Below, one piece after another: positions 35,742-35,949 of a stretch of 64,000 bases of DNA (within the stretch, counting starts at the first letter, position 1; every line of letters starts with the position of its first letter). The DNA is taken from contig NZ_LT594324.1 of assembly GCF_900089605.1 (NCBI RefSeq), forward strand, positions 5,084,001 to 5,148,000, in the 5' to 3' direction. Origin of the DNA: Micromonospora narathiwatensis (GTDB lineage: Bacteria > Actinomycetota > Actinomycetes > Mycobacteriales > Micromonosporaceae). A program made the position numbers and the translations under genes. Under the pieces are notes generated by a model that saw only the letters and a list, made by a program, of their open reading frames with translations, was not told where the DNA came from and made no database searches.

Positions 35742-35760
35742 GACGTAGTGTGACTACGTC
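35742..35760. promoter_or_regulatory. Perfect palindrome overlapping the leuA leader promoter
   Basis: GACGTAGT-GTG-ACTACGTC is an 8+3+8 perfect inverted repeat ending exactly where the leader-peptide ATG begins. It contains TAGTGT (35746-35751), the probable -10. A protein bound here would block initiation. Confidence 0.55.
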
Positions 35761-35805
35761 ATGTGGCAGGCGTACCTTCTCCTTGGCTGCCGCGACGAGG
35801 CCTGA
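35761..35805 (+). CDS. leuA leader peptide
   Basis: A 14-codon open frame, MWQAYLLLGCRDEA, begins right after the promoter palindrome and ends 144 bases before leuA. Codons 6-8 are CTT CTC CTT, three consecutive leucines; CTT is seldom used in the surrounding genes, where CTG and CTC dominate. This composition, and the location before a leucine-biosynthesis gene, are the marks of a ribosome-mediated attenuator. Translation would be from a nearly leaderless mRNA. Confidence 0.75.
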   Translation: MWQAYLLLGCRDEA

Positions 35806-35891
35806 CCGGCCGGCACCTCGTCGCGGAGTTGAACCGCGCCGTCCAGCACATCCGAACTTCCTCTCGGCACCGCCCGGGCAACGTCGCCCGG
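35791..35891 (+). promoter_or_regulatory. leuA attenuator region
   Basis: Arms CGCGACGAGG (35791-35800) and CCTCGTCGCG (35816-35825) pair perfectly over 10 bases; the left arm lies in leader codons 11-14, starting six bases after the last Leu codon. The right arm can instead enter CGCGG/CCGCG (35822-35826 with 35834-35838). A further hairpin CCGGGC/GCCCGG lies at 35874-35891. A ribosome stalled at the Leu codons would cover the first left arm and alter the folding. No U-run is visible, so termination could be Rho-dependent or the switch could act on leuA translation. Confidence 0.55.
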
Positions 35892-35949
35892 CATCGCGCC
35901 GACACCTTCCGATCTGCTGACGCCACATGTTCCCAGGGAGCACTCCGAG

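Follow-up and report, generated by a model that had tools for sequence, protein, structure and literature searches.

A leucine-codon leader of the LEU type before leuA in Micromonospora narathiwatensis and its possible mode of action

The leuA leader of Micromonospora narathiwatensis

The window, a 64,000-nucleotide stretch from the genome of Micromonospora narathiwatensis (one contig of 6.6 Mb), carries a leuA gene preceded by a short frame with three consecutive leucine codons. The following features make up this part of the locus:

35746 to 35751, + strand: TAGTGT, probable -10 element (TANNNT) of the leuA leader promoter, assigned by its position before the small start codon
35761 to 35805, + strand: leader peptide frame MWQAYLLLGCRDEA, ATG at 35761 and stop TGA at 35803-35805, read from the sequence and kept in relatives
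35776 to 35784, + strand: putative sensor Leu codons CTT CTC CTT, a run kept in relatives
35950 to 37701, + strand: leuA, 2-isopropylmalate synthase, ATG at 35950 (TIGR00970, 842.9 bits, cut-off 697.4)

The stop of the small frame lies 144 bases before the ATG of leuA. The frame, its CTT CTC CTT run and this spacing had been described in an earlier note made from the DNA alone, and re-reading confirmed all three. Of 1000 dinucleotide shuffles of 35742-35949, 14 produced a short frame with a run of three Leu codons. From TAGTGT at 35746-35751, transcription is expected to start at about 35758-35761, on the ATG or just 5' of it by a few bases. Among 175 loci, a TANNNT motif starting 20 to 9 bases 5' of the small start codon was found in 162, compared with 2-6 in each of five control windows further upstream. 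The leuA leader frame is thus probably leaderless or nearly so, its start being placed by position, which agrees with what is reported for Streptomyces lividans. In the text available on that species, leuL1 (MRFGLLLLSCRGEGL) is likewise described as a leaderless leader peptide before leuA without an intrinsic terminator, although it has four Leu codons in a row compared with three here and no base stem is mentioned there (PMC8079986). Leader peptides before leuA are also listed, in the portions of the literature at hand, for Corynebacterium glutamicum and C. diphtheriae, and an upstream frame for Mycobacterium abscessus. On the minus strand, a 1097-aa open frame extends over leuA (35737-39030) and is probably an artefact of high G+C content.

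From the Leu codons to leuA, the leader contains several sequences able to pair with one another:

35779 to 35786, + strand: CTCCTTGG, 5' arm of the base stem (anti-Shine-Dalgarno), overlapping the Leu codons, from complementarity and covariation
35790 to 35800, + strand: left arm of hairpin H1, CCGCGACGAGG, from a perfect hairpin and covariation
35808 to 35814, + strand: 5' arm of the pseudoknot helix H3, GGCCGGC, inside the H1 loop, 6 pairs with one mismatch here
35816 to 35826, + strand: right arm of H1, CCTCGTCGCGG, from a perfect hairpin and covariation
35838 to 35844, + strand: 3' arm of H3, GCCGTCC, from its pairing with 35808-35814
35840 to 35922, + strand: extra leader stretch of Micromonospora with a possible closure 35840-35852/35911-35922, a lead only
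35928 to 35942, + strand: local hairpin TGTTCC / GGGAGCA around the leuA Shine-Dalgarno sequence (-5.6 kcal/mol for 35927-35943)
35933 to 35940, + strand: CCAGGGAG, 3' arm of the base stem, holding the leuA Shine-Dalgarno AGGGAG (35935-35940), from complementarity and covariation

The base stem joins the two ends of the leader. Its 5' arm, CUCCUUGG (35779-35786), is made up of Leu codons 2-3 and the two bases that follow; it can form 8 pairs with the 3' arm, one of them G-U, and the surrounding 12-mers of the window's leader give a duplex of -13.0 kcal/mol. The Leu codons themselves can therefore pair with the leuA Shine-Dalgarno sequence, a potential interaction that the earlier note had missed. 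That note had described a 10-bp hairpin (35791-35800/35816-35825) beginning six bases after the Leu codons. The hairpin is real; as H1 it proved one pair longer and begins 5 bases 3' of the codons, with 11 perfect pairs and a stability of -23.9 kcal/mol (35790-35826), compared with a maximum of 9 bp for the longest perfect hairpin in 500 dinucleotide shuffles of 35742-35949. Judged from the base pairing, H1 is one helix of a predicted pseudoknot, which had also gone unnoticed. The pairing proposed instead for the right arm of H1, with 35834-35838, can form 5 bp. This alternative (35822-35826/35834-35838) is probably not the main device and is kept here as no more than a possibility, given that CCGCG (35834-35838) was counted by eye in 13 of 16 Micromonospora loci and that it is H3 that covaries across families. 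In the same alignment, again read by eye, the complementary stretches of the extra leader sequence are well conserved, with GTCCAGCA in 15/16 and TGCTGACG in 16/16 loci.

Two further pairings near leuA were considered. The closing helix 35840-35852/35911-35922, which would possibly compete with H3, was not supported by covariation across 22 Micromonosporaceae genera (p 0.11). The predicted local hairpin at 35928-35942 can provide a second way of masking the leuA Shine-Dalgarno; both of its arms are present in 11 of 16 Micromonospora rows (by eye). A terminator scan found no intrinsic terminator after H1, its sole match being a 6-bp stem (35755-35774) over the start of the frame, in line with the earlier remark that no U-run follows the hairpin. 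The terminator hairpin with U-run that marks a classical transcription attenuator was thus not found before leuA. Searches with Rfam covariance models gave one weak, unrelated match outside the leader in the 34500-37000 part of the window (E 0.14, far below the gathering score), and no match at E up to 1 in ten relatives.

Conservation and covariation in the class

The leader was compared over 178 loci (L002-L179), 90 from Micromonosporaceae and 88 from 29 other families of the class. One locus (L114) is cut by a contig end, which leaves 177 loci counted; L001 was dropped as the same place as L002, and the Leu-run positions of L089, L090, L133, L165, and L170 were set by hand. The rule by which loci were detected itself required a Leu-rich short frame, with the shuffle rate given above as a measure of proportion, and under this rule the run was found to hold four Leu codons in 31 loci, three in 141, two in 4, and one in 1, so that 172/177 have at least three. 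The run ends in CTT in 162 of the 177 loci. This codon had been called rare in the earlier note, and it does occur only 16 times among 2544 Leu codons pooled from the retrieved portions of the leuA frames of these loci. Being frequent at the end of the run and rare in leuA, CTT points to a codon choice under constraint beyond ordinary codon usage. ATG codons at most 21 nt 5' of the Leu run are in frame in 153 cases, compared with 10 in one of the remaining frames and 0 in the other. Similarly, a stop at most 60 nt after the run is in frame in 170/177 loci, compared with 22/177 and 18/177 in the other frames. Together with the CTT bias, these in-frame biases indicate that the small frame is very probably read. 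Frame and Leu run are kept over 30 families, Micromonosporaceae included, and a comparison of the kind that had been suggested as a check thus came out in favour of a leucine leader before leuA, both for the Leu codons and for compensatory changes in the hairpin stem.

From the Leu run to leuA the median distance is 158 nt in Micromonosporaceae (5-95% range 93-226 nt) vs 101 nt in the other sampled families (89-142 nt). The small stop lies 45 or 48 nt 3' of the Leu run in 43/177 loci. In many Micromonosporaceae (e.g. L018-L029, L035, L036, L039-L044), the frame reads through the right arm of the hairpin and ends in ...GTSSRS; the stop of these loci is not in the hairpin loop, and a terminating ribosome would sit elsewhere.

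The helices of the pseudoknot were examined in an alignment of 92 genus representatives (93 genera, with L106 left out). In H1, 7 of 11 pairs show changes on both sides and 99.2% of cells are paired. In H3, two-sided changes occur in 6 of 7 pairs and 73.8% of cells are paired, a figure affected by some rows in which the alignment misplaces the 3' arm. Taken together, H1 and H3 contain 104 double-changed cells, compared with 31.7 in shuffles and 11-30 in slid versions. A swap test, in which the sequences of each genus are paired with their own or with other genera's partners, gave -25.19 vs -22.81 kcal/mol for H1 with wide windows (p below 0.0005). For H3 the same test gave p below 0.0005 at both genus and family level; a control in which the H3 arm was paired with a stretch located downstream reached p 0.008 as well. 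Within Micromonosporaceae, covariation of H3 was absent (swap test p 0.67). In locus L133, the small frame ends in a TAG inside the left arm of H1, and the partner arm is changed to match (CCGTAGCGGGG / CCCCGCTACGG).

For the base stem, the Leu run of each genus was paired with its own and with other genera's Shine-Dalgarno windows, which separates a selected pairing from the meeting of any pyrimidine run with any Shine-Dalgarno sequence. The own duplexes averaged -11.4 kcal/mol vs -10.23 for the swapped ones (93 genera, sd 0.22), and none of 10 x 1000 permutations was as low. When each of the 30 families was represented by a single locus, the values were -11.48 vs -10.62 (p 0.029), which is the cautious figure because related genera are not independent. 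The difference was seen within Micromonosporaceae (p 0.001) as well as outside (p 0.0003), and five control pairings with neighboring windows on either side were null (p 0.28-0.91). The effect is modest in size: 62% of genera have an own pairing stronger than the average of the swapped ones. Examples in which synonymous Leu codons match bases beyond the Shine-Dalgarno core are CTCCTGCTT with GAGCAGGAG (L093) and TTCTTCTTC with GGAGAAGAA (L156). The frequent use of CTT is in keeping with pairing to the Shine-Dalgarno sequence, and codon rarity may contribute too.

A proposed mode of action and its rivals

Most Actinobacteria have been described as carrying an element named LEU ahead of leuA (Seliverstov et al. 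2005, PMC1262725). According to the text available, it consists of a leader frame containing Leu codons, a base stem formed by the Leu run with the Shine-Dalgarno of leuA, a pseudoknot, and an alternative hairpin (PMC1262725). The window's leader nearly certainly belongs to this element. It lies upstream of a leuA identified by NCBIfam, with a core-model match of 80.3 bits (see below), and its upstream frame contains the CTT CTC CTT run. The base stem is represented by the 8 complementary pairs and by covariation across genera, though nested folding does not choose it here. A two-helix pseudoknot follows the Leu run, with a strong H1 and an H3 that is possible with one mismatch. Compared with the 2005 element, the Micromonosporaceae version is mostly longer between pseudoknot and leuA, and in this genome H3 is imperfect and a local Shine-Dalgarno hairpin is also possible.

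The mode of action was left open in 2005. Leader-codon mutations in Streptomyces coelicolor are cited there as inconsistent with classical attenuation, and because leader mutations in this species did not fit that scheme, a binding protein (ML1624 orthologues) was proposed and favored by the authors, as far as the accessible text goes (PMC1262725). The results of a 1999 study by Craster, known through citations, are called paradoxical in its title.

Based on the comparison, we suggest, with moderate confidence, that the LEU element is a leucine-sensing leader that controls the start of leuA translation, and that its Leu codons serve both as sensor and as anti-Shine-Dalgarno. The leaderless mRNA would begin at or just before the small frame, and the pseudoknot of H1 and H3 would fold the leader compactly so that the Leu codons meet the leuA Shine-Dalgarno. 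When leucine is plentiful, a ribosome would pass the Leu codons, end at the small stop, and leave; the codons would then pair with the Shine-Dalgarno and leuA would be translated poorly. A shortage of charged tRNA-Leu would stall the ribosome on the Leu codons, where it would cover them and the left arm of H1, and leuA would stay open. Control would thus be exerted on translation and not through termination of the mRNA. The earlier note had offered access to the leuA ribosome site as one of two possible outputs, and covariation between Leu codons and Shine-Dalgarno favors that option.

Parts of this scheme resemble well-known systems. In the enterobacterial leucine transcription attenuator, Leu codons in a leader peptide also act as the sensor; unlike there, no U-run terminator is found here, and the codons themselves would form one arm of the switch. 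In translational attenuation of erm type resistance genes, stalling of a ribosome in the leader frame frees a Shine-Dalgarno that lies further downstream, as in the proposed model. The erm switch uses separate hairpin segments, whereas here the sensor codons would themselves be the anti-Shine-Dalgarno.

To simulate stalling, 174 loci were folded with 33 nt blocked as if by a ribosome, using a nested-fold method in which pseudoknots cannot form (3 of the 177 were dropped for having no assigned small start or a leader over the length limit). Placing the block on the Leu codons raised the average probability that the leuA Shine-Dalgarno is unpaired from 0.18 to 0.32 (92 genera). Blocks at three other places gave 0.16-0.20, the third computed on fewer loci, and the first two differ from the Leu-codon block at p 4e-7 and 1e-6 (92 genera). 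A ribosome at the stop of the small frame gave 0.23. Counting changes above 0.02, the stalled state opens the Shine-Dalgarno in 107 of the 174 loci and closes it in 28. For the group of loci, the folding predictions therefore fit an opening of the Shine-Dalgarno on stalling. The window's own leader shows no switch in these runs, with an unpaired probability of 0.02 when free and 0.01-0.02 when stalled; about 0.5 base-stem pair is predicted, and the minimum-energy fold uses other pairings. In this genome the local hairpin at 35928-35942 and other pairings are thus predicted to dominate, which speaks against the model here. Among seven listed Micromonospora loci, L007, L014, and L016 open clearly, and L002, L003, L005, and L009 hardly or not.

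The absence of a U-run terminator after the hairpin would also suit control at the level of transcription, in which unstalled translation leaves naked RNA and Rho or a pausing site stops RNA polymerase before leuA, the stop being prevented by a ribosome stalled on the Leu codons or by a changed fold. The available texts report leuA leader peptides lacking a terminator in this group (PMC1262725, PMC8079986), and a review, in its accessible part, describes leuA of C. glutamicum as under leucine transcription attenuation (PMC8709942). The longer stretch between Leu run and leuA in Micromonosporaceae would leave room for such a step. We nevertheless regard this reading as rather unlikely, since it does not predict the specific covariation between Leu codons and the leuA Shine-Dalgarno. 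Conservation and covariation of H1 and H3 across families, on the other hand, are what would be expected if the pseudoknot were the site of the protein proposed in 2005, which would fix the base stem and hide the Shine-Dalgarno, with translation of the small frame being secondary. This explanation, preferred in the 2005 text as far as available (PMC1262725), leaves the conserved start, frame, stop, and Leu identity and the positioned -10 element unexplained. Covariation of H3 is moreover not seen in Micromonosporaceae, yet the Leu run persists there, and a protein site is accordingly judged improbable. Finally, a probably leaderless and well-placed small frame could mainly raise leuA expression by bringing ribosomes to it, through coupling or re-initiation, without any sensing of leucine. 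The distance from Leu run to leuA varies, and neither the Leu codons nor their covariation with the Shine-Dalgarno would be expected from such an arrangement, which makes it very improbable.

Occurrence of the element before other genes

A covariance model of the core (R1), containing H1 only as its helix, was built from 92 rows, the window's locus among them. It was found to match in 154/158 genomes of the class. In the window's genome, the sole strong match is the leuA leader (80.3 bits at 35776-35851, genome 5119776-5119851); two weak matches elsewhere (25.5 and 23.4 bits) were treated as chance after inspection of their sequences. The leuB (130767) and leuC (151262) genes of this genome, both far away, have no core-model match at E up to 1, and leuC is preceded by a 25-residue frame containing LIL that lacks the core. 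In a sample of the phylum, 23 of 149 genomes match: 13 in the class, 9 outside it that are weak (E 0.005-0.034), and 1 outside it that is strong. This last one, genome G402 of another class of the phylum (locus L334), has a strong LEU element before leuA that is 69% identical to that of the window, and may reflect transfer or a misplaced contig.

Two or more core matches, some of which may be weak, were found in 55/158 genomes of the class. Further loci were chosen for examination among the matches listed, with L338 left out; these 28 lie before a leuA paralogue about 55% identical (10), a second leuA type about 26% identical (3), leuB (8), leuC (2), and a leuA orthologue (5). The target genes other than the orthologue, found in other genomes of the class, are distributed as follows:

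LEU core before leuB: L310, L311, L312, L314, L323, L324, L332, L333
LEU core before leuC: L325, L326
LEU core before the second leuA type: L328-L330
LEU core before the leuA paralogue: L313, L315-L322, L327

Two second-type leuA, three leuB, both leuC, and one leuA paralogue were checked with NCBIfam. The remaining leuA types rest on blastp, and the remaining five leuB on reading of the translation. The text available from 2005 names leuA and one transposase, and the copies before leuB, leuC, and the second leuA type are an addition to that set. Among papers surveyed by title and the beginning of the abstract, with few subscription papers covered, none was found to test the base stem or to report a LEU element before leuB or leuC.

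Compared with what can be seen of the 2005 text, the base stem now has a firmer basis and the set of target genes is wider. We see an even chance that two things hold together: that one RNA stretch does two jobs, the Leu codons doubling as anti-Shine-Dalgarno so that where one ribosome stands on a leaderless frame determines how leuA is translated, with no separate anti-sequester hairpin, and that the copies before leuA, its paralogues, the second leuA type, leuB, and leuC form a leucine regulon scattered within the class. If the dual role is true, it would account for the codon mutations called paradoxical in 1999, because changing the codons would also break the lock. This bears on leucine sensing at actinobacterial leuA, antibiotic producers included, where mutations cited in the accessible 2005 text had given results at odds with classical attenuation. 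The covariation found between synonymous Leu codons and the Shine-Dalgarno provides a concrete model in which Leu identity and pairing can be separated. The covariance model is usable for finding the regulon, and the LEU element may be of use for engineering the supply of leucine or branched-chain precursors.

The additional copies differ in their surroundings. At many of the 28 loci, the sequence predicted to pair best with the Leu run is not at the gene start. At the eight leuB loci, the gene start is separated from the core by about 140 to 670 nt, and at such distances the expression platform may differ. One family has several leuB copies with a VRIL leader containing a single Leu codon, from which it appears that the Leu run is not essential to every LEU copy. 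At L333, pairing is possible between the codons CUCAUCC and GGAUGAG, which spans the start of leuB.
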